This document shows positions 1 to 48,485 of a stretch of DNA of 64,000 nucleotides, in pieces. Below the pieces are notes generated by a model. That model did not search any database, was not told where the DNA came from, and saw only the letters and a program-made list of their open reading frames with translations. Within the stretch, counting starts at the first letter, position 1. Each line of letters opens with the position of its first letter. The stretch is from positions 868,001 through 932,000 of the forward strand of contig NW_026570240.1 of NCBI RefSeq assembly GCF_019649055.1. Direction: 5' to 3'. The DNA is from Paramacrobiotus metropolitanus. Taxonomy: Eukaryota > Tardigrada > Eutardigrada > Parachela > Macrobiotidae. A program made the position numbers and the translations under genes.

Positions 1-3000
1 AACAGCGATATCGCGCGCAGGAAGCTGGATATTAGCCGGCTAGATGCATGGCATGCGCCAAGCAGGACACTTAGCAGCGAAGGGGTCATTTTTTTGTCAG
101 CTGCATCCCTGAGCGCGCCAGCAGACACTGTATGCGGAAGTTCAGCTCATTTACGACTGCTCAATTGGTGCTAATGGAAAAGAAATGTTGCGTGATGAGC
201 CCTGTACACGACACATCCACAAATCCACAACACACAGATTACAACCGGTTATTAAAATGGTCTATTACGGAAAAACAACCGCTGTGATCGGCGTAGAGAA
301 TCGCTTTTTCCGCTCGTTCGTCGCATCACCAATGCACATATAATCGGGCATAGATCCAATCGCGGCACGACGAGTAATTTCATATCACCAAATAATCAAC
401 TACTCGTAATAAAGAATAACATTCCACCAGATGCTGCTTGTTCAAATCTTGCTCAGGGTGGAGTTTATGAGAACGACTGCCACTTTGTCGCCTACTCGAT
501 CGCCAACACCGATCCCTTTCGCACATATCTTGCGAACCGGGAAAAAACAAGACCCGGTAAAAATGGAATAAAAAAGAGACATGAACTGCGAGACAGCGAG
601 GATCTTGTACTGCTGTGCGGAAGATATATAGCGCAATCCATCTACGAGCTGGAATGGTAGGAAGTGCAACTTCCGTAAGGACTTCCGTTCGGCGTTATTG
701 ATTGTAACTCAATACATCAAAGACAACGGTTTGGGCGGTCCGCTAGCACCAATACAGATCGGCAAATGTGTTGCAGAGCAATTTAAACTGTCACTGTCAA
801 TCAGGATTTTTGACCAATGGGTAGCTAACGACTATTTTGCCAAACGGTCACAAATTTACTTATCAATCGCTTGCTACAGAATTATCTCTGGCTCTGTTTC
901 AACCATAAGATGCATAATTTTTACACGAAAACCAAATTTCATATATATGCTGTTACAATAATTATCTCTGACTGCCGATGAGTTAGACGACTATATTTGA
1001 GATCAGTCGCAACCTCTACAGAAGTGTTTTACATTACTGCATTAATGTTTTCACATATCATGTTCCAATCATGAGGCAACGGAAATCGTTGTACTGCGTG
1101 CGGTTAACTCAGTACAAGTTAGCACAGATTTAAATGTTTTAAATTAATACTTCATTGTAAGATGAAATCCATCATGATCTTAATTAAACCGGACTATTTA
1201 GCGCTGAATAATTAACCTAGGTTAATTTATACTGTTTAAGTTGCATAGTACAGCGTCTGTATGTGACTAAAACTGTGATTAAGCCCTAGTCGTAAAATGT
1301 GTACAAGTAGGATCATCCATTTCGGTTTGACAAAACCCTATTACTGGATGTGATATCTGTTAATGTTATATAGATCAGATTCAACGCGAATATCAAATAT
1401 ATTTTAGTGCTAAAATTTGGTTTATTATTCACAGCCAAGTTAACTGCATCTGACAGACGAGACGATCTGCATTTCTTTCCTTATCACACACCCCTCCACA
1501 AAAGCCAAGCGGTACAATCCCGGGAACATCTTTATAATACAACTATAAGCAAATTTGATGGCATTTTTTCAATCATGACAAAGTGTAACTGGTAAAGCGT
1601 ATCCGATTTAAATACGTATAGCGTTTTTTGTCTGCAAAAGCATGCAACACGGACGGAAAATAAAAATAATCGATGGCTCATGTACGATGTGCCATGTTAT
1701 GGACCGTTCAAGCCCACCAACCCGGCTCTTTAAGTACCAAAAAGTTTTACCCTGATGGCAGACACACCCGTGTTCTTATGATGTATACATAAGAAGATGA
1801 GAGTATGTAATCCCATGATCCGTTCTCGATAACGACAACTTTATTAGTTTTCTGCTACGCAGTTGCAGCAAATGCTGAAAACGTCATATTTACTAAATTT
1901 TGATGGATGACAGTCAATTAAAGCAATACGCATGCTTACATGAAATTTGTACTTGCAACGTCACGCATTCTCCACAAAATATAATTTTGAATTTTTGTAA
2001 TCAGAAAACGCAAATTTACTTTAATAAACAATAAAAGGGTGTTTGGAAAGACATGTTTTAACCTCAGTGTAATCTGACCACCGGCACCGACCCTCCAGAA
2101 GGCTGTTTTAACAACGCGTTATGGGGTCATGTGACCCATCTGTACAGCCACGTACTGTATCTGTATGCATATTATATTCCACTGTCCGTATATCCATTGT
2201 TTTATCAGTTTTAAGGAGTACGCAGTTCTATTTCTACTTGAGATACGTTATCAGCTTTAAACAGTATAAAAGAAAAAATGTTATGCATGGAGTCAAATGT
2301 AACATCTGAGGAAGATGAGTTCTGGGCGCTAATTTTTTGCAGTACTTTCGCATTCCGCAAATTTTTTAGGTTAATTCAGGCAGTTTGTACAAATAAATGC
2401 AATGTGAGACAGATGCGGTATTGAGAGGGTAATGTCGTATCAATACATGCGGCATATGTCCACAATTCGACCGGAAATCACAAGTCGGTAGCGATATTCG
2501 CAGTGTGGTACATTGCGTTTGTTTGCTTTACGAATTATTTCTGTACATACAACTCCTTATCACAACAAGCCCAGCTCGCTGAAAAAGTGGGAGTGATACT
2601 TCAGCGCCATAAAATGAAAAAAAGAGGATTCAGAAAACGGACGAACAAACAAACTGGTGGCGAAGAAAGGTTATGGAACAAAGATCGAACATATGCTCAG
2701 TACATCAAAATAATCGTACTGCCAAATGGTTTAAATTGGTTTCGTACCGTTGTGGTGCAACGCAAAGGTGTAAGAAAAATTCAAGTTTTGATCACGATTG
2801 CTGTTCTGCCGTGCAGTATATTTTAGCTCCCAAAACCTTGGACTTTATAGGTCTTTTGGCATTGGTTTTCGGTTTTCATACTGGCCAGTGGCGGTTTCGG
2901 CTTCGAATATCGATATCAGTTAAAAAACATCAATAACGTCTTAGTGGACGCCTGGTAATATCAACATCCTAACTGTCTGCAAACTGGAACTGAACGAATC

Positions 3001-3474
3001 TGGAATCTGTTTTGTACATACAAAAACCATTTTCTGCATTTCCTTTCACATCTAACGCTTTCAAACTACAAACATGAAATATAAGCTAACAATAAGCGGT
3101 ACTTCTATTAGTAACTGATTGAGAACACTACGCTTCAAAATGGTTTGATTTAACCCCCTGATTGGATAACCAGTTAAACACAGTGAAAAAATACTAATAA
3201 ATACTGATCAAGACTCCGCAGAAAATAAACACGTATAAACTGTAACTGTTCACCTTTTCTTGATTAGAAAGGCGAAACACCGATACAGAGCATCTTCCAG
3301 TTATGCAAAAAAAAACAACTGTTTGTGAGGTATAAAAATGACACGGGTTATATTATGAGATTTGAGTTCTAAAAGCAATACTTCCAAAAAAAAACATATT
3401 TCCATCTATAAAACATTTACGGTCATTTTAATATTATCAAAGCGGAATGGACAGACGCCCTGAGCCAGGAGTTT
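1..3474. other. Intergenic, no gene supported
   Basis: No open reading frame here has a recognisable domain or a coherent exon chain on either strand. The longest frames (about 60-107 codons, for example around 442-669 and 2503-2826) are low in coding character and are not bounded by convincing splice sites that lead anywhere. The right edge is the 3' flank of the minus-strand SLC33A1-like gene. Confidence 0.5.
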
Positions 3475-6018
3475 CTATTTATCGTCATCCACCTGCAAGC
3501 GCCACGAGCGCTCCGGCAGTTCCTGAAGTGTTCGAATGCGTGACCGGAAAAACTGATACCATATTAATCCGAAAGCAAAACAAACCATCACTTCCACATA
3601 AAATCCATCTAAATCCACCACACAATTGCCGCCTCCAGCTGCACAAACCTGCAAAAGCAACCAGAAATTATTACGAACAACAGGAGTGATAACTGCAAAG
3701 ATTATCCGCGAGTCCATCGCCATGAGTTAAGTTAATGTGCCCGTAATTCAACTCACATCTTTTTGCGATTTCTGGTTGCAGCTCATACCACTTGCGCCCC
3801 CTCCTTGACAGGAAGACCATGTCAGATCGTCCACAAGGCTCAACGATAACGTATTCGGCCAATTGCCACCCAGATTGTATACCGTATTCAACAAAGTCAT
3901 ATAAGTGCCACCAATCATAGGATCACTAATACGCGCGAAAAATCCCATCACTGACACGAACATTCCGTATAAAGCAATCTAAATACAAACACAACCGCCA
4001 CCAGATTAGCATTCGCAAAACCCTATTATCATCAGCTTGTGTTTTACACCGACTGCCAGGCTTACCTGATGAACTGCATAGCTCAGTAAAATTAATCCGT
4101 AATAATGCGCAGGAAATGACCCATCCGCTAGTTTCATCTTGGGTGTGATCCACACAACCAGCGCAAATTCCAAACCCATTAATAATCTATAATGAGAAGT
4201 TTCGGGTAAAATCCTCCTACACGTAACGCCCAGCTTGGAGATGATTTCCATAAAACAATGACCACAATTAAGCAATATGTATTTTCCAGCTCCCCTGTAA
4301 AATCCAACATACCTGCACGGATAGCTTTTAAGAAAAATATTCATCGGTTTCGGTCCAGCTGTATACTTGCTAATTAACACCGGAAGAATGATTTGTAAAG
4401 GAACCATCGGCACAGCAAGTAAAGCCAACTGCTCCTTATGCACACCCAGTTCAATAAGTTTCAGACCGGACACAGCTTCGGCAGCCGAGAATGCAACCTA
4501 GATTAAAAAATAACAATTCGACTTTCACAGGTAAGTCAATATTGACGGTGATATTCACCTTGGAGGTTAGCAGAATCAAACACAATCTGATAACGCTGGG
4601 CAGCCTGAGTATTTTAAGCAAGGTTCTGTATGCCGACAGCACACCCTCCGAAGCATCGTGGTCATCATCGCCTTCCTTTTTCATAATCCACACAGCCGTA
4701 GTGCTGATTATGAAGACGAATCCCCAAAACCATAAAAAGCCTAACAATTATAATAGAACTGCAATGCACTCGAAGGTTGATGCGGAATGTGTTTTCATTA
4801 AGTGCCAAACTTACCAGGGAGCGTCACCATGCCTGTGGCTTCGGGTTCATCGCGGATATACTTATTGCAGAAATCCGCTGATTCGAAAGCCAGAAACATT
4901 ACGTTCCCAATAAAGTAGCCCGCTGTCTGCCCTACGGAATTGCATGTAGAAGCGTATCCCACATTGCGTCTGCAACGAACGAGACATAGTGTACCGGATG
5001 TGACAAAACAAAAGTGTAAGAAATTTCGTAAAGGTATTTCCGATTGCGAAAACGGTACGTACAAAAGTTTAAATATGTGCCATATTTTAGCCTTTTAGTC
5101 TAAAAATCGCAAGGAACAAAAAACACCGGAATAAACTGCGAGGTGATTTTACCAGCAAGCTTTCAAAAACATTTACACGCTTTTGTACGAAGCTTCGGAA
5201 ATCCGGATTACAAAAATAAATAAATAAGTTTCCAAAACGCAATTTTCCCAAACGAGTTTACTTAGCAAGCATAGTCAGAGCCCAGCCATCCACGGCGATA
5301 TCCTGAACGGATGCCAGAAAATTCAGAGTAAAAAATATGACGGTAATGATGACAATGCTGGGAGTGGCACCGATAATATTTTTTCCATCTGGTTGGCGTC
5401 CGAGTAAGGAATCCACCGACAGAGACAAAATTAACATAAAGATTCCAATCAGATACTGCGTCGGGATCAGCCAGCTTTTCCGCCGTCCAAAGGCTTTGGA
5501 ATAAATGGAATCAATAATCGGTGCCCAGATCAATTTTAGGCTAAAGGGCCAAAATACCAAACTGAAAAATGCCTGGTCGTGATAGGAAACATGGCGACTG
5601 CTGAGAATCATCGGAATGCTGCCTCCAAGTCCCAAAGGTATGCCTGAAAACAGAAATTCGGTAAACCTGGCTAAGCAATCTGATGTTAGGAAAAGCGTCA
5701 TTGACAGCGCTACTTACTTTCATAAATGATAGATACCAGCAATAAGACTATAAGAATAAGTAATGTGGTGCACGCAATTCGACAAAGCACATTATTCAAA
5801 AATATACCTTGCAATACGTAAAGAAACAGCAGCAGAGCGACATTCCACCGGTCTTCCCTGATGTCTGGCGCGAGAATGGTGGACTGCGAATTGACCTCCG
5901 GAATAGCGCTGCCGACGTGGTTCGGTCTCAAAGGAGCTCGCCGTTTGAGGTTGTTGCGATTAATGGACAAAAGGGTCTTTTGTGCGGACGCTTCTTCTTC
6001 CCACTCTGGCAATGACAT
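3475..6018 (-). CDS. SLC33A1: Acetyl-CoA transporter, SLC33A1 (AT-1) family
   Basis: This multi-pass membrane protein of the major-facilitator-like AT-1 family imports acetyl-CoA into the ER/Golgi lumen. Eight exons read on the minus strand: 6018-5808, 5643-5262, 4969-4815, 4740-4559, 4497-4313, 4186-4066, 3978-3757 and 3648-3475. All junctions are GT-AG and in phase. The sum is 1632 nt, or 543 aa, close to the roughly 549 aa of vertebrate AT-1. Family signatures are plain: DIREDRWNVALLLFLYVLQG before the first membrane segment, YHDQAFFSLVFWPFSLK, FGRRKSWLIPTQYLIG, NVGYASTCNSVGQTAGYF, ALLAVPMVPLQIILP, SKYTAGPKPMN, and DPMIGGTYMTLLNTVYNLGG. It ends with a hydrophilic tail after YQFFRSRIRTLQ. 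The start is the first ATG upstream of an acidic cytosolic N-terminus. It is divergent from NIP7, with about 1.07 kb between the start codons. Family assignment is very secure; transport activity is inferred from the family. Confidence 0.96.
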
Positions 6019-7090
6019 TATTCGCTTTCACACCAGATAGGGAATCAGCTTTCATCAGGCGAGTTTCGCAGTAACGCAGTTTTGCTTAAATATCAAGATC
6101 GCAGTGTTCGCAGAACTGAATAAAATAAACAACTTCCAAATACCCAAGAGTCCAAATCCAATAAAAGTAAGTTAATTCAGTTAGGTGGTGCAGGAGAAAA
6201 TGTACCTCTAATCAGCGGAATTTAGGCAATAATTTGCGATACTTTATTCCTTCAAACTTTAAAGATAAACAAACATCCTGTAATACGGAATATCAAATCT
6301 GTCTACAAATGAGTCCATGACCATTTATTTACGAACAAAATACCCTTGAGGCTGCCGTGTTCTGTGTTTCATCTGTGTTTGTCGAAGTTTTTAGCGAAGC
6401 TGACAGCGGCAACACACGTAATCCGCAGTGACGTCAGACAATCCATTTGTACCTGTTAGAGCTATCTGCAACAGGCGCACCCCGCAGAAGTTTGGCACCT
6501 TCGCAGCAGTACCGTAAATTGTGGATCACGAAGAACCTGCGTTCCCAATATTTCATTGAATTTCACTTGTGAGACAGTGAGAGTAGAATTTCTGTCGAAA
6601 TTTTTATTACAACTATTCATAATTATTGCATTTGGTGTAACGTCTGATACCGCGCTTTATAATTTCATTATTTATTCATCATCACAAATCACAATTTTAA
6701 TCGTCATTGGTCTTGGGACATTCTGTTTCAGTTTGTTAGCGTTTTGCAACTTGCTGCCTTTTGCATACTGCTCTTGCGTAGAATATTTGTTCCTCTGGAG
6801 TGAAGCGGCGCGAACATTTGGAGACAACGCGATACCTGGATATTACTAATTAGTGAGATAGCTGGGTAAGTGTAACAAATCAAATGGTAGAATTCGTACT
6901 GCTTTAACAATTTGTACGTACTCGTATAGTCGTATTTGTACGAGTACAGTCAGATTTAGACGTTGCTTTTTTGTTAGGCTCAGAGCATTACCGGGGAACC
7001 GGTGTGTGTCTTCGAAAAAAAGCGCTTTGTGTGCTGTTTATCTGATGTGAGCCGGACCATTTCACAAAGTCCGCTGAACGTGATTCCAGA
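6019..7090. promoter_or_regulatory. Divergent intergenic region between SLC33A1 and NIP7
   Basis: This 1.07-kb stretch lies between two outward-reading start codons and must hold both promoters and 5' UTRs. No TATA box at a sensible spacing stood out. A 97-codon hydrophobic open frame at 6556-6849 lacks an ATG start and any domain, so I treat it as non-coding. Confidence 0.4.
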
Positions 7091-35868: not shown

Positions 35869-38220
35869 TTAAAGACTCACTGCATTCACTGCTAACGCTA
35901 CTGCTGTCACTGCTGTCTGAACTGTCTGGTTCGTTATCCGGCATAAATGCTGCAAATGCATTCTGCTGGGATACAGGCGGAGGTCCCTCGGGCATCCGGA
36001 ATACCGGCGCCCGTGGGTTCCTCGACCAATGCCGTTACCACCTTGCCTCAATACAGGCGATGTACTGCGTGAGCTGGCCGGCGACGAGGAGCCGGACCTT
36101 TCTGCTCTCCTAGCCTGGAATGCCTCAAACTGCCTGCGTGTTCGTTGTTCACCGCTAGGCCAATGGTACTTCCTATAATTAGGGTTCTGATGTTGTGGAA
36201 GGTCTTTCCACCAACAGTTCTCTGTTATGTGGCCTTCCACTACACAATGCGTACAATACGGTATACCAGGGCGCGGTGTGGTACGCACATTGCGAGGGCC
36301 CTGCTGCGGACCGGCACGCGACTGCTGTTGTGGTGCCGGTTGATTATTGCTCACAGTTGCCGGCTGCGCAGCTGCCTGCGCATACGACAGCTTGCTGTTT
36401 GCTGCTGGATTTACTCGATTACTGCTTCTAAACTGCTGTCTATTAAATTTATTTGCCGGGTTAAACGGCTTCTGCTGTACAATATTGCCGGAAGTAGACT
36501 GCTGCAGTACATTTACCGAGTACTCATCTGTACTGTATCTACTGGGCATCATTGATTCTAGGTACCTGGCCTCGCTTAGAAATTCAGCGGGCGTACGTGG
36601 CTTGCGCAGAACAATATCATCCTTTAATGCTTTAAACGTGCGTAACCCTTGGATGAGGTAATTCACGAAATGCTCCGGCGGACCGGCAAAACCTGCCCGG
36701 TCGCGCAAGGTACACATTGCTTGATAGTATGCATCAATGCTTTCCTTATTTTTATCAAATGTTCTCGTAGCTAATTTATTTAATGCGTTAATTGCTTTAT
36801 CGCGATCGCCAAAGCGCTCCACAAATGCTTTTTTCCATTCGTCGAAGCTGGTCGGTGCATCCACCGCGACAGATGCAGAACCGTACCACTGCTTCGCATC
36901 TTTCTCTAATGCATTGCTGAATTCAATAATTTTAGTTGCGTCATCCCAACCGTACGTTAATGCGGTCTTATCCAGTTGAACAAGGAACGATTCCACATCG
37001 TCCTTGTTACCGCTAAATTTGCCTTTAAAGTGTACTGCGGGCTTTACTGCCTGTAATGCGGTAATTAATTTCTGCGTAATATCATCTTGCTGAGATTCGG
37101 CTGCTCTCCGTACAACCGGTGCAGCTTCAACATCATCATCACTGATGTCAACTACTGCTGATTTATGCTGCTTATTAATGACACATTTATGCTTTAATAA
37201 TTCTGCGATACGATCCTGTGCTTCAGCATGTTCTTTATGCAAATCTTCATACAACTTTTCGTATTGCTCTCCATGTGCTTTATACATCTGCGAGGAATTT
37301 ACTGTGGCCGTTAATTCTTCTGAGATTTTTAGACGCTCAGCCTGTTCATGCTTATATTTATCCTTATATTTATTCAACTGATCAGCCATTTTAGTAATAG
37401 CCTCTGCTTGCGGTATGCTTTTATTATGCTCTTCTGCTTCTGCACGGAGCTTAATAATTTCATGCTTCCAAGAATTTAGTACTTGGAACTGCCGATCAAT
37501 TTCTGCTTTATACCTTGTTTCAGTTGCTTCATGCGCTTCAATAACTTGTTCATATTGCTTCTTCTCTTCTGACCATGCCTTGCAGACATCATTTGCATGC
37601 TTACTTTCTTCTCTACGACGAAAAATTTCATCATGTGCTTTCAGTAATTTTGCTTTTAATTTTTCATTATGCTCAGTTAATTCCTTATAGCGATTACTCG
37701 TATCTACCAAATCTTGCTGTGTCTTATGCAATAATGCTTGAATTTCATCGTAATGCTGCTGCGTATTTTCCGGTAAAAGTTCTTTAGGAGAACTATGCAT
37801 CGGAGAATGAAATGCTGGATTACTGGACAGACTCTCCTCAGATGGAGATCTGTTGACCGATAAATTGAGCGGAATATCCGACTCATTGCTAGAAGGTTCA
37901 ATATGCTCATTATTATCACCGTTATCAACAGGTAACTGCTTCGACAATGCTTGTTGACTTTTATCAATATACGTCAGTTCATGCTCGTCACCAAATGCAA
38001 TTTCTTGATCGCGATCAGAAATTGATATTAATTCTGAATCATGAGTGATATTGCTAGCGATAGACTGATACGAAACCTGCGAGGCTGATGATGCTGACCT
38101 TTCCGGTAATTTTTTCGGCATTAGCACTAAGTGCGCTAAGTGCCGATGTAGATGCTGGTGATCTTTGCAGTTTACTGCTACGCGCAAATGCTGCCGCTCC
38201 TGAATTTTGAATGGCAGCAT
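35869..38220 (-). CDS. gag: Retrotransposon Gag, with displaced 5' end
   Basis: This 783-codon frame encodes the structural protein. A long coiled coil covers residues about 155-340 (heptad-rich Lys/Glu/Gln/His). A capsid-like helical region follows (FLVQLDKTALTYGWDD to about residue 580), then a Gln/Pro/Arg-rich linker and one CCHC zinc knuckle, YCTHCVVEGHITENCWW (C-x2-C-x4-H-x4-C). The natural N-terminus probably lies upstream: a frame starting with ATG at 38457 (MEEKRSPVRDLL) runs 55 codons to 38290. An Ala/Ser-rich frame covers 38281 to about 38120, and only then does the main frame take over. So two frame changes sit near the 5' end. The ATG at 38220 may therefore not be the true start. 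Confidence 0.82.
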   Translation of the reverse strand: MLPFKIQERQHLRVAVNCKDHQHLHRHLAHLVLMPKKLPERSASSASQVSYQSIASNITHDSELISISDRDQEIAFGDEHELTYIDKSQQALSKQLPVDNGDNNEHIEPSSNESDIPLNLSVNRSPSEESLSSNPAFHSPMHSSPKELLPENTQQHYDEIQALLHKTQQDLVDTSNRYKELTEHNEKLKAKLLKAHDEIFRRREESKHANDVCKAWSEEKKQYEQVIEAHEATETRYKAEIDRQFQVLNSWKHEIIKLRAEAEEHNKSIPQAEAITKMADQLNKYKDKYKHEQAERLKISEELTATVNSSQMYKAHGEQYEKLYEDLHKEHAEAQDRIAELLKHKCVINKQHKSAVVDISDDDVEAAPVVRRAAESQQDDITQKLITALQAVKPAVHFKGKFSGNKDDVESFLVQLDKTALTYGWDDATKIIEFSNALEKDAKQWYGSASVAVDAPTSFDEWKKAFVERFGDRDKAINALNKLATRTFDKNKESIDAYYQAMCTLRDRAGFAGPPEHFVNYLIQGLRTFKALKDDIVLRKPRTPAEFLSEARYLESMMPSRYSTDEYSVNVLQQSTSGNIVQQKPFNPANKFNRQQFRSSNRVNPAANSKLSYAQAAAQPATVSNNQPAPQQQSRAGPQQGPRNVRTTPRPGIPYCTHCVVEGHITENCWWKDLPQHQNPNYRKYHWPSGEQRTRRQFEAFQARRAERSGSSSPASSRSTSPVLRQGGNGIGRGTHGRRYSGCPRDLRLYPSRMHLQHLCRITNQTVQTAVTAVALAVNAVSL

Positions 38221-38457
38221 CAGCTAATAATGCAAACGCTGACTGCGGATTATGCGCACGAGCATGCGCACGAGTATTCACATTATGTTTTACTGCTGCT
38301 GTTTTGCTGGATACTGCTTTACTTTTCTGAGTTTTCTTCCGACTGCTTCTTCTTGCTGCTTTTGTGCACCAGGTTTATTAACGACCTGGGCCGGTTTGAA
38401 AATGCGACTTCCGACAGCATTAAGCAAGTCTCTCACAGGAGACCGCTTCTCTTCCAT

Positions 38458-39738: not shown

Positions 39739-39746
39739 GTTGGGAC

Positions 39747-39840
39747 GTGTACAAACATACTACCAGTGCACCACATCATGATTGCGCAATAAAATTCTTG
39801 ACGGTGGAGCTGTTCACGGTAGCTTGTATCAACGCAGCGC
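39747..39840 (+). repeat. Left terminal inverted repeat, 94 bp
   Basis: It is the exact reverse complement of 45369-45462. Identity begins at GTGTACAAAC and stops after CAACGCAGCGC. Inside it lies a small palindrome TCACTAGTGA at 39892-39901. Confidence 0.93.
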
Positions 39841-40016
39841 ACAACATACAGTAGCAGCGTTGTGTGTGCTGCAGTGCTGATAAGTGATTAGTCACTAGTG
39901 AGAATGGTTACTATATTAGTTTTTCTGTTTCTTATGAATCTTATGATGTATGAGTGTCGTTTTGATTACTTGGGCTAATTACCTCTTCTGTACATTTTAT
40001 TTCTATCGCATTATAA

Positions 40017-40275
40017 CAGTTACAGAGTATTCTACAATTTCTGGAGTGGAAATGTGGGCAGGTACTGATTGATCTTGTGTTCTTATTTGCCTGTGAGAAG
40101 CAGCGAAAGTGCGAGGAGCCTCTCTTTGACCAACGTAAACTGCACCGTTCACGATCTCACCCGTGCAGCTGCGATCCCGAGTATAGCCCAGCGCACCCTG
40201 CTATCCGATCAGTGGTCATGGAGGCCGTAGAGGTCGGCGATCTGACGAAACTGCTCAGCGAAACGGACACCCTCG
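40017..40275 (+). other. Truncated MH1-like 5' exon of the transposase
   Basis: This open segment ends in a good GT donor (phase 1) that joins in frame to the nuclear-receptor exon. Its end, AIRSVVMEAVEVGDLTKLLS, resembles the first helices of the complete MH1 copy downstream (AVRAVVRNAQSVDDLEKLLV) at nine of twenty positions. It is preceded by a Cys-Lys-rich stretch with a C-x5-C like that of receptor finger 2. It looks like the remnant of a duplicated receptor-MH1 module. Confidence 0.55.
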
Positions 40276-43200
40276 GTAAGCAATGAGATCTACGAACCTT
40301 GCTTTAAAGTTATTCAATTGAATTATCGTTCCCCCTTTGAACGGCGGGAATCTCGATGGTCGTTGCAGAAATGATTAAAAAAATCCAAATTAATTAGGAA
40401 CGCTCCCTCCAGAGTCCGGAGTCCAGAGAGTCTATCGCCAGATATAATTATAAAAGAGCCACATATAATTATAGAAGAGCTTTACCGTTTACGTAGATTC
40501 ATTTTTGTTTTGTATTTTAGGAGTGAAAATGCAGCAAGACCGCTGCGCTGTATGCTTCGAAGTTGCATCCGGTTTGAGTTGCGGAGTGTTGACGTGCGTA
40601 CCTTGCAAACTTTTCTTTCTAGCCAACTGGAAAAAAACGGTGCGTGGCAGAATAGATGTTTCATATCATTCTCTCGATAAAATACACCGTTCGTTATCGT
40701 TTAATTATTTTAGACTTTAGAATGTAAAAAAAGCGGTCGGTGTGCGGTCGAAAATGTTTCCCGCAAGACGTGCAGCAAATGTCGTTTGGAAAAATGTCGT
40801 GCAGTCGGCATGGATATTAGGAAATCCTCAAAGCATCCAGACCGCGCCCGGTTGGAAGCGGAGCTTTTAGAACTTCGCAACCACAGAACTCCTAATCCTT
40901 TCGCAAAGAAAGCTGTCAGAGCCGTTGTTCGAAACGCCCAAAGTGTGGATGACTTGGAAAAATTACTCGTTGCGGTGAAGAAGGAAAATTTTGAGGAAAC
41001 TGAATGTGTGCCGTTCGCGCATAAAGTTATCAAGGTATCTGTTTATCATTTTAAAAATGAATAGATTAGAACTTTGCGTGGTTGAATACTACTGAATTTG
41101 TTTTTTCAGTAAATTGTTAATGCTGTTTTACATTTAGGTTAACGAAAACGAAGTCTTGAGTCATGTTCTGACCGCACGGATATTTCGATGGAATCGCGTA
41201 ACAGCAAACAACGTCTCTTCTTCACACAAGTGCACGGTGGATACCGGTTCCGTTTGCATTAATCCTTACCATTATCGTAAAGCTGAAATGGCGGATCCGG
41301 TTGGGAGCGTCTGCGTTGTGACGGGTTGCAGCAATTACACAAAAAAAAATCCCAGCCCGGGATTTTTCCGTTTGCCGGACAGAACTACAGACGAAGAGCG
41401 CTATTTGCAGTTTTTCTCCCTGTGTGCTCGTCAAGATTTGGATAAGACGGGATTCACCAAACACCACCGCATTTGTGGAAAGCATTTTCTTGAGTCTGAT
41501 TTTAATACAATGTAAAATTAATTGCAAAATTAAAGAAACAACTTCTATGCCGGCTGCTGACATATATTTTTTTGCAGAGGAAAACGGCGGATGCTTAAGA
41601 AAACGGCGATGCCAACACAGTTTATGCCTAAGCCAATCAATATCGCTCCTTTGAGAAGAGATGTTGTCCGTTTGAGCTTTGAAGAAACCGAGGCAAAGAA
41701 AAGCTGGGATTTTGGAAGTTAATGTCTTCTGATAAATACCAACATGTTCCGGGCATGGAGTGGGTACGAGTGCGCTGCAATGATTCTGTCATCGTTTTCG
41801 GACGCGTTCGAATGCTATCGGAGGAAACGACTGAAGCCGTTGCGGACACACTAACTGTTAACAAGAGTCTCAAGGCCCTGCTGAAATTGGGAGATCATGT
41901 TGTTTCCACTGACGTAATGAATTGTTTAGCAGGGTCGGACGATGCAACGAGTACTTACGGTTTACAAAAGATCTGTGATTTAGACGCTGCAGTCATTGAC
42001 AACGGTTCACGTGATGTTGAAACGCAGTGCCGAAATGTGATCGCTGGCGCCAAACGAATTATAACACATCTCGAACAAGAACAGGATGCAACGTTTGTGG
42101 ACAGTGATAATGGATTTAACGACGATGAAGATGAACAGTGTCAACGTCAAAAGAAACTCTTATGCGTCTTTCGATTTGTTGCTGAATTAATGGAGCTCTC
42201 TATTACCAGATGCCGAAGAGCTATTCGACATTCTGATGCTCTTATACGATTTTGCGGCATGCTTAAAAGTATTTCGACAGCGGCATACAATTATTTTCGG
42301 AATTTTCTGTTTGGACTTCTTCCCCATATTAACCACCTACAAAACTGCGCTTCTGTAAATTCCTATTCGGAAGGTATTCAGGATGAAAATTTGGCCAAAT
42401 TGAAGAAAATCTCGGAATCCGTTGAAGATCGCCATTTGGATGTTGAACTTATCAGCGACCAAACATTCACCGACGAGAAACTGGAGTATCGCGGAGGAGA
42501 AATAATCGGGGTTGCAAAAAACCAGGAGGACGTTGTCGCTGCGAAACATGTTTTGCTCTTGATTATTCAAAGTTTCACTGGAAAAGTTCGTAAAGTCGTC
42601 GCATATTATTTTGTTAAAAATCTGAATGGGGCTGAGATGGCTGAAATTCTGGAAGCGGTCTTGAACTCAATATCAAAAAATACGAAATTCCGGGTTCTGG
42701 TGTGTTCGTCGGATAACGGAGCCGAAAACATGGGATGCCATTCGCGCTTTATAAGCGACAAGACGAAGTTTCCATGGACTTTTCCCCATCCTTGTGCTGA
42801 CGGAAGTATTGTATATGTATTATTGGACATCGTGCACTTACTCAAACGAATTTGGACGAACTGTATTCGGGAAAATAATTCGTTCGTTATAGAGGTAACT
42901 AAATCATTTCACCTGGTGTTCATGTAAATATCTGCCTATTAAAATTTAATTAATTTCTTTTTATTTTCAGGTTGGAACTCGTCGGGTAGACTTAACGCTA
43001 CTTTTGCAGATATACGAAATAGAACGCGGTTCCGTCATAAAAAACGCGCCGGATTTGACAGCTAAATTATTTTATCCGAACGGGTTTGAAAAAATGGATG
43101 TATCGAATGCGGAAAAAGTACGTGCATTATGTTTCTTTTTGTACCGATAACATTCTTATCTCGCAAATAGAATCGTACAGATTCAATAAGGACGTTACTT

Positions 43201-44822
43201 ACTTTTGAAAGCATATTTACGTACGTAACTTATTTTCAACCAGAAAACCGAATTAATTCATTTAGTACCGTACCGCACTTACTATTTATTTTAGATTTTT
43301 TGTTCTGACCGGACTTTGGGGACACTGCAGATGCTGCTGCGAGATCAGAACATCCACTCCTAAAAGAATTAGCCAATGTGCGCAGCGAAACTCGAGACCA
43401 GTGCGTAAAGTGCTTGGATGTACTCGTCTGGTTCATTCAGACTGTGCAAAGAATTGTCATGCCTCTTACTGTACTGAATCCTCGTCAAGCTGCTCGTCTA
43501 AAGCAGCCGCTTTACGAAGCTGTTACAAAGGGCAACATCGATCGCATTTTCTCTGTAAGTTAATTAAGATGAAACAAGGGATGTTCAGTTTTTATTTTTT
43601 GTTTTATTTAGGACATGAAAGTAGCATTGTCTGAGCTCCGTCCATCGACGAACGCCAGGAAATCGTTGCCCCGACCGACGTGGACTGGTCTGCACGTTAC
43701 CGTGTACGGCACAGAAGAAGTTGCCAGAAAGCTGTTGCACGCCGGTTTTGAGTTTGTTCTTCCCGGAAAAATGTCTAGTGATCCAATAGAGGTAATCTGC
43801 TAGAACATTATGAAGCTGATGTTCGAATTTATAACTAACATTTTGCAGAGAATATTTTCTGCGTTCAAATATGGTTCTGGAAAGGTAACAGTTGGGAAAG
43901 TGAAAGAAGAAGTTGCAAGGATGGAAACATTACAGCATCTGACGGGAACAACAAACGTCAGCCGCATGGGACGACAAAAGAGAAAAAATACCGGTCTGAC
44001 TTTTTCCACATCCCCATTGAAAAAGAAACGCCATATTGACCGGCCGCTGCGCACGAAAGTTTTCAGCTTTGAAGCAGATATCGGATACCTGCGTGCGTTA
44101 GGCGAGTTGTCTGCACATGTGCCGTCAGATATATTTTCCGGACTCCAAAAAATCGATCCTCGGCTCTGGAGCGCAGCGACAATTGCAGATCTTGTTACAG
44201 CAGATCCGTATACGATTTTCAGTTGCAGAAAAGGTAATATTTTCAGAGCATTTCAGTGTCTTAGCAAAATTTATTAGCCGGCTACTCATTATGTTTTGTA
44301 GATGTCGTAGGGACTGGCTTGACTGATGTTGGCGGATATATTGTTTCAAAAATGCAAAAGGGAAAGTTTCCGTGCTCTTCGTGCAAATCTGGTATCGGAA
44401 ATCTTCTGGGTGTTTGTTTTTCGGAAACCGGCGGGTTAGTTGAAGCACGATCTCGGGTTGAATTTGGTGGCTTAAGTTTACCTTCCCCGCAGTTGGGCAA
44501 ACTGCTGCATTATGCGCTTGGATTTTTTGAGCGTTTGCAAAAAATCAGCGAATTTTATAAAGGCGACAGCCATTTGGAAAGGGCACTCAAACTCATTCTC
44601 CTCTCGATGGATCTCCACGGCTTTCATCCTCTTAGTGATATTTGTGTATGTGAATCGACGAAGTATTTAGAGTATGAATGTCTAAAGCGGTTCTTTAACA
44701 CTGCGTTTAAAAATGATGTGATTGAGCGCCGAGCCGATGCTGTGAAGAAAAAGTATGGTGCTCGGAAGTCTGTACCGATGTCGACTGATCCTGGTAAATT
44801 GAAAAAATTAAAGCAGCTATAA
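40218..44822 (+). CDS. P-element-type transposase with nuclear-receptor, MH1 and THAP domains
   Basis: Exons: ...-40275, 40521-40639, 40714-41034, 41138-41511, 41578-42894 (with a frame change at about 41683-41722), 42971-43117, about 43295-43554 (frame change near 43308), 43612-43791, 43849-44233 and 44302-44822. Domains: nuclear-receptor finger 1 (CAVC...CVPCKLFF, from 40544) and finger 2 (C-x5-C-x9-C-x2-C...KCRAVGM, from 40723). An MH1 domain runs about 40897-41285, with ligands in TECVPF, HKCTV and VCINPYHY. The THAP domain follows (about 41286-41640; CVVTGC, FFRLPD, ICGKHF, AMPTQF). The RNase H-like transposase has candidate acidic residues at 42457-42459, 42712-42714, 42826-42828 and Glu in DPIE (43780-43791). 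The first in-frame ATG is at 40218, but the frame is open from 40017 and carries a truncated MH1-like piece, so the true 5' end is unknown. All other junctions are in phase. Confidence 0.85.
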
Positions 44823-45368
44823 GCCTATAGCAGTCACTGTTGACACTTCTTCCGTTTATTGCTAGGCTTACTTTTTTTTAAATTGTTAATTAATTTTAAC
44901 CAAAAAATATTTACTCAGATGTTTTAAGTGATAGATCAAAAGTTTTAATGGTACAGAAAAGCCGGAATATTATTGATTATAATCTCCGAAATACTGTGCT
45001 GTCAAAACAGAGGATAGCATAGACAGCTACACAAAAATTTGCAGGTAAATGTGGTATGTGCAGACAGGAAAATAAATACATTTTCGCATTTTAAATTTGA
45101 AAAAATATTATTTGCTAAAATTCCTGTCAATACGTCTACGCACTTAGCTTCACAGTCATAATTCCATACCTTAAACACACATGGCTGCGCGAGCGCGGGA
45201 CCGATACGTGCAGTAATAAATGTTAAGAAACGAGTCAGAAAATTAAACAAAATAATAATAATACAATTATTACGACGTATCTCGGCAAATGTTATAATTT
45301 GCAACTTCACTTCTATCCGTAAAACAAGGCTATCGGTATTGTGGTGTGCTCACTGCGCACTGTACACG

Positions 45369-45462
45369 GCGCTGCGTTGATACAAGCTACCGTGAACAGC
45401 TCCACCGTCAAGAATTTTATTGCGCAATCATGATGTGGTGCACTGGTAGTATGTTTGTACAC
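45369..45462 (-). repeat. Right terminal inverted repeat, 94 bp
   Basis: It is the exact reverse complement of 39747-39840. Outside it the plus strand continues with a short tandem, TTGGGAAC then TTGGGACC. Confidence 0.93.
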
Positions 45463-45954
45463 TTGGGAACTTGGGACCGAGCACTTGGAAGCTGAGCACC
45501 GGCACCGATGAGTCATAATTTTCAACCAAACCAAACAGAAACTAGCACAAGAGACCATTCTTATCTCCAGCTCGAACATTTGGTCAGGAGATCTCGTTCT
45601 GAAGTATCCTAATCTTTGGCATTTTGCGATGCTTTTTGAAGTTTGGTGAATTGCATTTTCTATATTTTAACGTTGACACATTACAATTATACAACTTGGA
45701 TTTGGTGCTAATTTTGCAGATTACATCACACTTTGAAACTCATGCAGGGATCTGTTTCTGTAGTCTGGTGATTGTTGTACGCTCTGCAGGTTCAATACAA
45801 CTCTTGCAACTTTGCTTATCATTATGTTCACCGATTACCTAGGCGAATAATGGTTTCGTAGCGAGTGCTCTACAGCTGTGTACTGACCAGTGAATTTATT
45901 GCTTATTCTCCAATTGTTTGAACTGGCTGATTGAAATACCTGGCTACGATTGGC
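45463..45954. promoter_or_regulatory. Spacer between transposon and caspase start
   Basis: About 490 bp that must include the caspase promoter and 5' UTR unless an upstream exon lies elsewhere. The transposon therefore sits within normal promoter distance. No TATA box was identified. Confidence 0.4.
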
Positions 45955-48485
45955 ATGGAGTATGATGATGGGATCATCGAGCCGGATGCTGGCACACCAC
46001 AGATCTCCCAATCAGGCAGTGGTGATGGACGGTCTGTCACACAGACCAGATACCCGTGGGAAAAAGCCTCCAGTAGCTCCGCTCAAAACGAAAACGATAA
46101 CAGGACCACGAACTTACAGGATCGCTACGGGGATGGCGTTGATCCAGTTAATTGGTTAGCGAAGCTGACTGTGATGCTTGCCAATGATAATTGCTCGCGT
46201 ACGGGAGTCTCTGAAGAGTTGCGTGGAATCTTGAAGGACGAAATTGTCGTCAAATCTCTTAATTTTCCACAGAAATTTCTTCAGCGCCTTGCAGATCTGA
46301 AAGTGATTTCTGAAGACTTTCATGGCGAATTGCAGGTACAGTTGACACATAGCGCTTCGTGTATTTGCTTATTTCTGCTTTGCTTTTTCTTGCTTTTTTT
46401 TAGATTTTTACTGTGTAGTTTCTTTGATTTGATTGTACTAAATTTGCTGTCAACGTTATCTTATGGATGCTTTATTAGTATATTTTTATCAGTACTAGTA
46501 CCTAAGGTTTTTGTTCAGGAAATTTTGCTAATCGTCTTATTCGGATTGCTTGTTCCATTCTCGCATCTTATACTTGTATTTTCTGATTTTTAAAATTGGT
46601 TCTCCTTAAAATAGTGGTGAGGGGAAGTAAACGGTAGACTAGCATGTTGGCAACGGCGATGCACATCATTACAGCTACAATATTATATTTATTTACAAAA
46701 TTAACAGTTAGCTATAATGAGTGGCGTTTCGTGCCGTGCAGTGTGAAAACTGGTGATCAGATATGATGTCATTTTTCGTAGTTAATGGAAGCCAACTCAG
46801 ATTCTCTTCGGGAGGCTTTTTGGAACTACTTGATTCGCAGGGATTTGATGCCAGTGTTGAACTTCACTAAAGCTTTGTATGAAGACGAAAAATACGAACC
46901 CGTTGTGAGGATTGTGGACTTCATAAGGAAACGCAAGCTGCTTGATGGGCCTGCTAAACCGACTCCTCGATCATCTGGTATTATTATTCATTAATCCTAT
47001 GTATTTCCATTTATGAGGCAGTTTCTCACAGTCAACTGTTTTATGTTTGAAATGGTATTTTGCATCAGTGGAAGATTGCAGTGAACGTATTTAAGGGAAA
47101 CATGATGCAAATCTTTGATTTTGTAGAAGAAAGCGTGTGGGTGACCGACGGTGCGGACGTCCAGGTTCGACCGGGAAAATACCAAGGTGGATCTCGGGTG
47201 TACCGTATGGCGTCAAATCCGCGAGGTCATGTGTTGATAATCAACAATGAGAACTTCGAAAAGAGTGGTGTTTTTACGGATCGCCTTGGTACTCATGTTG
47301 ATGGGGCCAAACTGGCGCGTCTGTTTGAGCGACTTTCCTTTAAACTGTACCAGGGAAGGCAGTTCCGGGACTTGACAAGAAAGGTACGTTCTACTTGTTC
47401 GATCGTTTTTGTTAATGTTCAAGCAGTACCAGACTCTTTGTCATAACAAGCGGTCTTAACTGTCTAGCCTTCCGTGTTTGTAATTAGAAAATGGCGGAAC
47501 TGGTCAGCGATTTCGCTCTTTATGAAGACCATCAGAACGTGGACGCAAGTGTCGTTTGCATACTCTCTCACGGAGATGAAAAAGGTATCATGGGTATCGA
47601 TGGAGAACCGATTACCGATGCCCAGATACGGTCCTATTTCACCGCTGACAATTGTCCGCATCTAGCTACAAAGCCGAAAATCTTTTTGTTTGTGGCTTGT
47701 CGAGGATGTGAGTAGTCTAATTTGCGGTATTAGCATTGAAAACTGTTGATATGCTTAAAATTTTTGCAGCGTTCATCGATAATGGGCAAGCTGTGCAGGC
47801 CTCACTTCGGCACGGCATTAGAAGTGCCGGAATGGAGCTTAGATCTAACATCGATGTGAGGGCCGACGGTGTAACCGGTAGCGGCACGGATTTCCATATT
47901 TCTTCTGAAGTTAAGGTTGGCAACGATCTTGTCCCTGTTATGGAACTGCGCCACCAGCCACCCACCTCCAAAAATAAAATTCCCAATAACGTGGACTTCA
48001 TAAGTGTATATGCAACTGTTCCGGGTAAGATTGTGTCGAAACCTTGAGCTTCCTTCAGGACTTCATAACGCCTCAGGACTTCCTTTATTAGCTCACTGAA
48101 TGAAAGATACGTTTATTTTCTTAGGGTATCGATCTCTGCGCGACATTGACAAAGGCACCTGGTTCGTCCAGGATTTTGTTAATGTTATCTCGGAAGAAGC
48201 TTATCTGAATGACTTCGCGACAATGGTTTGCGAGGTATGCATCACTTTACATCGCCGTTAAATCAGTCTTAGCTTGAAAGCATCGTTTGATTAAGTTCAG
48301 TTCTTGTAAAACCGCATGCAGGCAGCGGTTCCACAAATTGATAAAACGTTTTTGTCTTAACGTGTTTTTATTTTGAGCAGGTAAATAATCGTCTCAGCGA
48401 ACGCGTAACGAGAGATGGTGAAAAGCAGTCATTGATGGTTTCCACTACACTCCGTCGCAACTTGTTTTTTAATCCTGGATTCTGA
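45955..48485 (+). CDS. Initiator-type caspase with DED-like prodomain
   Basis: This cysteine protease of the apoptotic caspase family has seven exons: 45955-46335, 46782-46977, 47127-47383, 47488-47707, 47770-48024, 48125-48234 and 48381-48485. They are in phase throughout and give 507 aa. The roughly 230-residue prodomain includes a death-effector-like fold spread over exons 1 and 2 (SEELRGILKDEI, FLQRLADLKVISEDF, then LIRRDLM matching the RxDL motif). Catalytic domain: RGHVLIINNENF, VDGAKLARLFERLSF, His306 in SHGDEKG, Cys349 in VACRG, then the small-subunit block VDFISVYATVPGYRSLRD with GTWFVQDF. The active-site pentapeptide has Val where the family normally has Gln; the catalytic Cys and following Arg-Gly are intact. 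It is presumably a caspase-8/Dredd-type initiator, but this rests on the modest DED match. Confidence 0.92.

Follow-up and report, generated by a model that had tools for sequence, protein, structure and literature searches.

How does a transposase come to carry the DNA-binding modules of host transcription factors? A locus of the tardigrade Paramacrobiotus metropolitanus raises this question. It lies in a stretch of 64,000 nucleotides (here the window; C20:868001-932000 in an assembly of 169.8 Mb and 533 contigs), where an earlier, sequence-only reading had proposed that one spliced path leads from a nuclear-receptor finger, a SMAD-type MH1 domain and a THAP domain into a P-element/THAP9 catalytic core. 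We consider it probable, at roughly 0.62, that the locus is a copy of a P-superfamily cut-and-paste transposon whose transposase would place a receptor DNA-binding domain (DBD), MH1 and THAP in a row ahead of a helix-turn-helix (HTH) region and an RNase H-like core, with this array binding the transposon's ends.

Five segments of the window (40218-40275, 40521-40639, 40714-41034, 41138-41511 and 41578-41719) join in phase to give a product of 338 amino acids (aa), and a protein search found it to match RefSeq LOC129586354 (P0001) at every residue. Pfam assigned three domains to it, all above the curated cut-offs: zf-C4 at residues 27-93 (E=4e-15), MH1 at residues 124-214 (E=1.2e-12), and THAP at residues 225-306 (E=2.2e-13). 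Among sequences of solved structures, nuclear-receptor DBDs matched the same protein with a best E of 3.8e-11, and a SMAD MH1 domain (5nm9) matched residues 119-214 with E=5.8e-9. The core piece of the window (41686-42894 plus the next exon, 452 aa) matched TNP-like_RNaseH_N (PF21787) with E=8.8e-13. All four profiles were thus accepted in the searches that the sequence-only reading had named as able to refute it. Its statements on the metal ligands also held up: the receptor fingers read C-x2-C-x13-C-x2-C and then C-x5-C-x9-C-x2-C, and the four MH1 zinc ligands (C, C, C, H) align with those of host SMADs in 11 of 11 rows. Receptor finger 2 and the first MH1 half do share one exon, as claimed, and the second MH1 half and THAP share another. 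As far as sequence can speak to whether the domains belong to separate mRNAs, the RefSeq gene model puts receptor, MH1 and THAP in one predicted protein. A structure predicted for the 338-aa protein from a three-row alignment had a mean pLDDT (predicted local distance difference test score) of 34 and was discarded. The features of the window copy are as follows.

39740-39746: left copy of the target site duplication, 7 bp, TTGGGAC; 6 of 7 bases equal the right copy
39747-39840, plus strand: left terminal inverted repeat, 94 bp, 100% identical to the right repeat
40218-40275, plus strand: exon 1, with the start codon; identical to RefSeq P0001
40521-40639, plus strand: exon 2, nuclear-receptor zinc finger 1; Pfam and RefSeq model
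40714-41034, plus strand: exon 3, receptor finger 2 and first MH1 half; Pfam, RefSeq, and matches at 6 other loci
41138-41511, plus strand: exon 4, second MH1 half (ligands C, C, H) and THAP; Pfam and RefSeq
41578-42894, plus strand: exon 5, end of THAP, linker, HTH region and first part of RNase H; window frame break near 41700
42971-43117, plus strand: exon 6, core; 147 nucleotides (nt), equal to L011
43295-43554, plus strand: exon 7, core; frame broken in the window copy
43612-43791, plus strand: exon 8, core; 180 nt, equal to L011; SDPIE at its end
43849-44233, plus strand: exon 9, core; 385 nt, equal to L011
44302-44822, plus strand: exon 10, C-terminal part and stop codon; 521 nt, equal to L011
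45369-45462, minus strand: right terminal inverted repeat, pairing with the left repeat
45463-45469: right copy of the target site duplication, TTGGGAA

The window element is 5716 bp long (39747-45462) and is bounded by perfect 94-bp inverted repeats. Because these repeats bracket the whole interval, all exons, those for receptor and MH1 included, lie inside the element.

The window core is broken, with two frame breaks, and the complete fusion therefore rests on sister copies. A genome search with exon 3 recovered the receptor-MH1 piece at six further loci, on C29, C33, C99, C2, C89 and C1. The copies fall into two subfamilies, and inverted repeats of 94-128 bp flank five of the six further loci (L010-L014). 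The copy on C99, L011, contains ten exons separated by nine GT-AG introns and gives one open path of 1223 aa, homology with P0003 and the window having guided the choice of start codon and splice sites. Pfam found zf-C4 (1.5e-8), MH1 (5.1e-12), THAP (1.1e-10) and the RNase H N-terminal domain (3.8e-8) in this protein; neither a ligand-binding domain nor an MH2 domain gave a Pfam match in the 338-aa or the 1223-aa protein. L011 also has a perfect 7-bp target duplication, and it agrees with the window in the lengths of exons 6, 8, 9 and 10 and in the phases of the first four introns. The copy on C29, L014, is 99.0% identical to the window element across 5.7 kb at a different site, an indirect sign of what may be recent movement, and its THAP exon and core share one frame. 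L010 and L012 are relatives of L011 (95.9-99.5% identity) with internal deletions; L012 retains receptor, MH1 and THAP but only the later core exons. In the protein search at E<=0.001, the two proteins found besides P0001 were both from P. metropolitanus: P0002, named "nuclear hormone receptor family member nhr-10-like isoform X2" and carrying zf-C4, MH1 and THAP, and P0003, for which zf-C4 and MH1 are listed. The single path that the sequence-only reading drew through the window thus stands for the receptor-MH1-THAP part, whereas the window's THAP and core are not in one frame.

One further copy, L009 on C1, retains receptor, MH1 and THAP without any core. A right-end repeat fragment lies at the end of its coding part; the left terminal repeat was looked for and not found. 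Within C1:2050600-2060500, positions 5246-6754 on the minus strand read as an open receptor-MH1-THAP gene without a core, under the RefSeq name nhr-10-like. L009 is a candidate for either a domesticated transcription factor or a deleted transposon copy.

We examined the core beyond the receptor-bearing copies as well. PF21787 had 18 matches in the genome, and the loci read were those on C20, C29, C99, C5, C370 and C8 and a decayed one at C1:1373841. Two Asp residues are invariant in 4 of 4 rows of the core alignment (A2), their catalytic role being assigned by position, and the Glu of SD(P/A)IE (SDPIE at the end of window exon 8) may be the third catalytic residue. At L058 (C1:1373565) the core is decayed, and a receptor-MH1-THAP match was not found there. 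Searched against protein databases, the core and alignment A2 returned nothing at E<=0.001; because the search depends on exact shared words and on similar length, distant relatives may have escaped it.

Two of the elements with a core, L059 and L060, are divergent and have terminal repeats of their own (117-150 bp). Each has one open reading frame (ORF), of 644 and 700 aa, respectively, that spans THAP and the core together with the second half of MH1. Their MH1 scores were 28.4 bits for L060 and, below the cut-off of 25, 16.4 bits for L059. A receptor finger was found neither in the upstream ORFs nor in the zf-C4 genome search listing (63 matches, most of them outside the receptor tree described below). 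A degraded finger may still be there in both, given that this search did not pick up the fingers of L010, L011, L012 and L014 either. To the eye, a short, similar stretch occupies the place of the receptor finger in ORFs upstream of MH1 (L060, 6415-6648 minus; L059, 6310-6522 minus).

To gauge constraint on the added domains, we computed ratios of nonsynonymous to synonymous substitution (dN/dS) by the Nei-Gojobori method, excluding L013 and L014 for frame breaks or stops and using L010 in exon 3 only. Between the window and L009, dN/dS was 0.19 in exon 2, 0.23 in exon 3 and 0.23 in exon 4; between the window and L011, it was 0.10 in exon 3, where synonymous sites are saturated. Purifying selection acts on the exons for receptor, MH1 and THAP, and constraint on the receptor and MH1 parts, taken over entire exons, is about as strict as on THAP.

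Target duplications of 7 bp were exact in six of the eight large copies (L010, L011, L012, L014, L059 and L060) and had one mismatch in the other two (the window and L013). The ends themselves are more widespread than the large copies. The window-type terminal repeat had 40 matches in the genome and that of the second subfamily 38, the large copies' own ends included in both counts, and a number of the latter were paired about 550 bp apart. We fetched 14 short elements with the same ends (546-686 bp), which are spread across the genome. Eleven of them have an exact 7-bp duplication, a twelfth also does on the assumption that its first repeat base has changed, and the remaining two have none. 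Over the 17 exact duplications, counted without a random control, the target leans toward G-T-N-N-N-A-C: G at position 1 (11/17), T at position 2 (11/17), a purine at position 6 (17/17) and C at position 7 (12/17). Outside the duplication, C stands two bases before position 0 in 11 of 17 and G at the mirrored place in 10 of 17. This pattern is a palindrome centred on the 7-bp duplication, as a dimeric core could produce.

At the level of sequence, then, the array lies between terminal repeats, joins the core in one open protein on C99, occurs in two subfamilies, is kept by purifying selection and sits in elements with 7-bp target duplications. In the mechanism that we propose, receptor DBD, MH1 and THAP would jointly bind the long terminal repeats (94-128 bp) and so give an end specificity beyond the single THAP site of the Drosophila P element, and the core would cut and paste. 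Internally deleted copies and truncated receptor-MH1-THAP products with no working core might serve as repressors or regulators, by analogy with KP for P. The array was likely assembled in steps, MH1 and THAP first and the receptor DBD later.

Several observations weigh against this account. The 338-aa frame of the window meets a stop after 41719, leaving its THAP part and core out of frame, and a second frame break lies in the exon at 43295-43554; L014, although intact between THAP and core, has stops elsewhere. P0003 has lost one finger-1 cysteine, and receptor finger 2 taken alone gave a dN/dS of 0.57 between the window and L009 (33 codons), a weaker constraint. The HTH model PF12017 scored 17.1 bits in the window, 21 in L060 and 22.5 in L059 against a cut-off of 23 and was not listed for L011. 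Pfam found no GTP-binding insertion in the window or L011 and detected it in a control from the same genome, L061. Repeat length does not track the receptor domain either, because L059 and L060, in which no receptor finger was detected, also have long repeats.

Four other explanations were considered. The sequence-only reading had suggested that the receptor and MH1 domains steer insertion near host receptor or SMAD response elements, which would suit domains that are the DNA-binding modules of host transcription factors and insertion sites that, with their GTNNNAC lean, are not patternless. The pattern, however, is palindromic around the duplication, as from a dimeric core, and we know of no receptor or SMAD consensus that a GTNNNAC-type palindrome matches. 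The residues that contact DNA in known receptors and SMADs, those of the P-box and the MH1 hairpin, are moreover unlike those of the host proteins: the window P-box reads CVPCKLFFLA against the usual CEGCKGFFKR, and the MH1 hairpin, located between ligand 1 and FRW, does not show the SMAD pattern. No receptor half-sites or SMAD boxes stand out in the repeats, judged on the left ends of five elements and with no statistical control. Because the contact residues are changed and no consensus stands out in the ends, targeting of host response elements is not favoured, and we regard it as unlikely. Still less probable is that the host exons are mere passengers, acquired by chance and functionless in the element. 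Transposons do capture host exons, and the weak constraint on finger 2 in one comparison would fit, but dN/dS well below 1 over whole exons disfavours it. Exons 2-4 are under purifying selection and kept in both subfamilies, exons 1-4 have identical borders and phases in both, and the transposon MH1 groups with that of L059 and L060, apart from SMADs.

That assembly or gene prediction has fused unrelated genes has next to no chance of being right. The broken frame of the window copy could be read that way; yet the receptor-MH1 piece occurs at seven loci and terminal repeats at six, the shared exons are uninterrupted, and single MH1-THAP-core ORFs lie on two more contigs. The strongest of the rivals, though we think it improbable, is that the main product is regulatory, a short receptor-MH1-THAP protein controlling the element and only occasionally joined to the core. 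The RefSeq models at C20, C1 and C89 all stop soon after THAP, L009 and L012 retain receptor, MH1 and THAP with no core or with its later exons only, and the Drosophila P element has THAP-bearing repressors in its 66-kDa and KP products (PMC7776569, in the part consulted). Against this, the short window model ends at a frame break absent from L014 and L011, and MH1-THAP and core share one ORF in L059 and L060. We retain the transposase with a three-domain, end-binding array as the preferred reading.

We next consider where the added domains came from. Capture of both the receptor DBD and MH1 from the host, as the sequence-only reading had suggested, is likely; the receptor's donor, however, is not resolved by the tree. 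In that tree (12 rows, long branches; L078 left out, its DBD being split three ways), 97% of bootstrap replicates grouped the four transposon receptor domains together, and none of the eight host rows came out as their resolved neighbour. Both transposon subfamilies have a phase-0 intron ahead of finger 2, three codons short of its first cysteine, and so does the host receptor L077 (C23); of the three host receptors read whose DBD is split, L077 is the one with this position. As a clue to the donor, the L077 match is suggestive only.

For MH1, the tree placed L056 and L057, the two host rows, with five transposon rows and opposite four SMAD rows, with support of 100/99. The two host rows were nested among the transposon rows (82/84), and the transposon rows alone formed one group in 7% of bootstrap trees. 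An 18-row tree with nine SMADs gave the same grouping (99/99) and the same nesting (85/85); three of its rows fill 37% of columns, MH1_C14b has a long branch, and SMAD_C3 is without the hairpin stretch (exon not located). Minus-strand MH1 loci of the genome, translated on their coding strand, are SMAD-like. L056 (C12:1812000-1821900) has, at 2063-5520 minus, matches to MH1 (2.3e-11), THAP (4.4e-7) and the PRDM2 PR domain (1.2e-21) and weak C2H2 matches; L057 (C166:65500-75400) has, at 2069-5556 minus, MH1 (5.6e-9), PR (4.3e-18) and C2H2-like ORFs, and no THAP match in the ORF scanned. From the order of successive same-strand ORFs, each is apparently one host gene. Because both PRDM-type genes are placed, with moderate support, among the transposon sequences, exchange of MH1 may also have run from transposon to host. 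We put forward tentatively, at somewhat less than even odds, a two-way exchange in which the transposon lineage took a receptor DBD and MH1 and gave MH1, in at least one case with THAP, to the PRDM-type genes of C12 and C166; a complete receptor-MH1-THAP factor may also have been handed over, in the form of the C1 copy, which stays open and constrained. If so, receptor-like and SMAD-like factors could be born from transposases.

With Drosophila P and THAP9, the tardigrade element shares THAP, the RNase H N-terminal domain (PF21787) and terminal inverted repeats, and with P also internally deleted derivatives and introns in the transposase gene (PMC7776569, in the part consulted). It differs in adding receptor DBD and MH1 before THAP, in the GTP-binding insertion, which Pfam does not detect, and in its ends, with a 7-bp duplication and 94-128-bp repeats where Drosophila P has 8-bp and 31-bp ones. 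The same portion of that source gives the 8-bp target duplication of P and describes internally deleted copies that can encode repressors such as KP. Galileo, a Drosophila member of the P superfamily, also has long terminal repeats and 7-bp target duplications (PMC3573991), and its repeats hold multiple THAP binding sites (PMC3688188); Galileo's repeats are, however, very long, internally repetitive and foldback-like, and the portions of these sources consulted mention neither receptor nor MH1. The ordinary THAP-P element L061 (C8) of the same genome likewise has THAP, HTH, the RNase H N-terminal domain and perfect repeats (61 bp), but it consists of one 842-aa ORF with THAP near the start and a detected GTP-binding insertion, in which neither MH1 nor receptor gave a match. 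Nuclear receptors share the C4 double zinc finger and, in L077, the position and phase of the finger-2 intron; the transposon differs from them in its P-box (CVPCKLFF or CDSCRKFF), its transposase fusion and the lack of any ligand-binding domain found. From SMADs, with which it shares the MH1 profile and the four zinc ligands, it differs in that no MH2 was found, the loop between ligands 2 and 3 is short and the host SMAD hairpin pattern is not kept. We found no description of a receptor-MH1-THAP transposase in the open-access full-text literature, subscription papers being mostly outside that scope, and met the architecture in no other organism in the searches made.

Several further observations concern the surroundings. 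In the window, a 784-aa ORF at 35869-38223 on the minus strand looks, by eye, retrotransposon gag-like, with a zinc-knuckle-like motif, and caspase-gene-like ORFs adjoin the element at 46782-47720 on the plus strand (also by eye). Elsewhere in the genome (G000), C17:1.20-1.41 Mb holds a very large THAP cluster that accounts, counted by eye, for some 80 of the genome's 150 scored matches and includes several ORFs of more than 1000 aa with many THAP matches each.

The known direction of such traffic is from transposon to host, transposase domains becoming transcription factors (PMC10027918, a survey; "mh1" and "nuclear receptor" are absent from its main text). In this element the flow appears to go the other way as well, out of host transcription factors and into a transposase, where selection retains the added domains. 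One practical consequence is a hazard for annotation, a coreless copy carrying the RefSeq name of a nuclear hormone receptor. The finding suggests that transposons can both acquire and transmit parts of transcription factors, and it offers a testable system for how transposases change the recognition of their ends and how new domain combinations arise.

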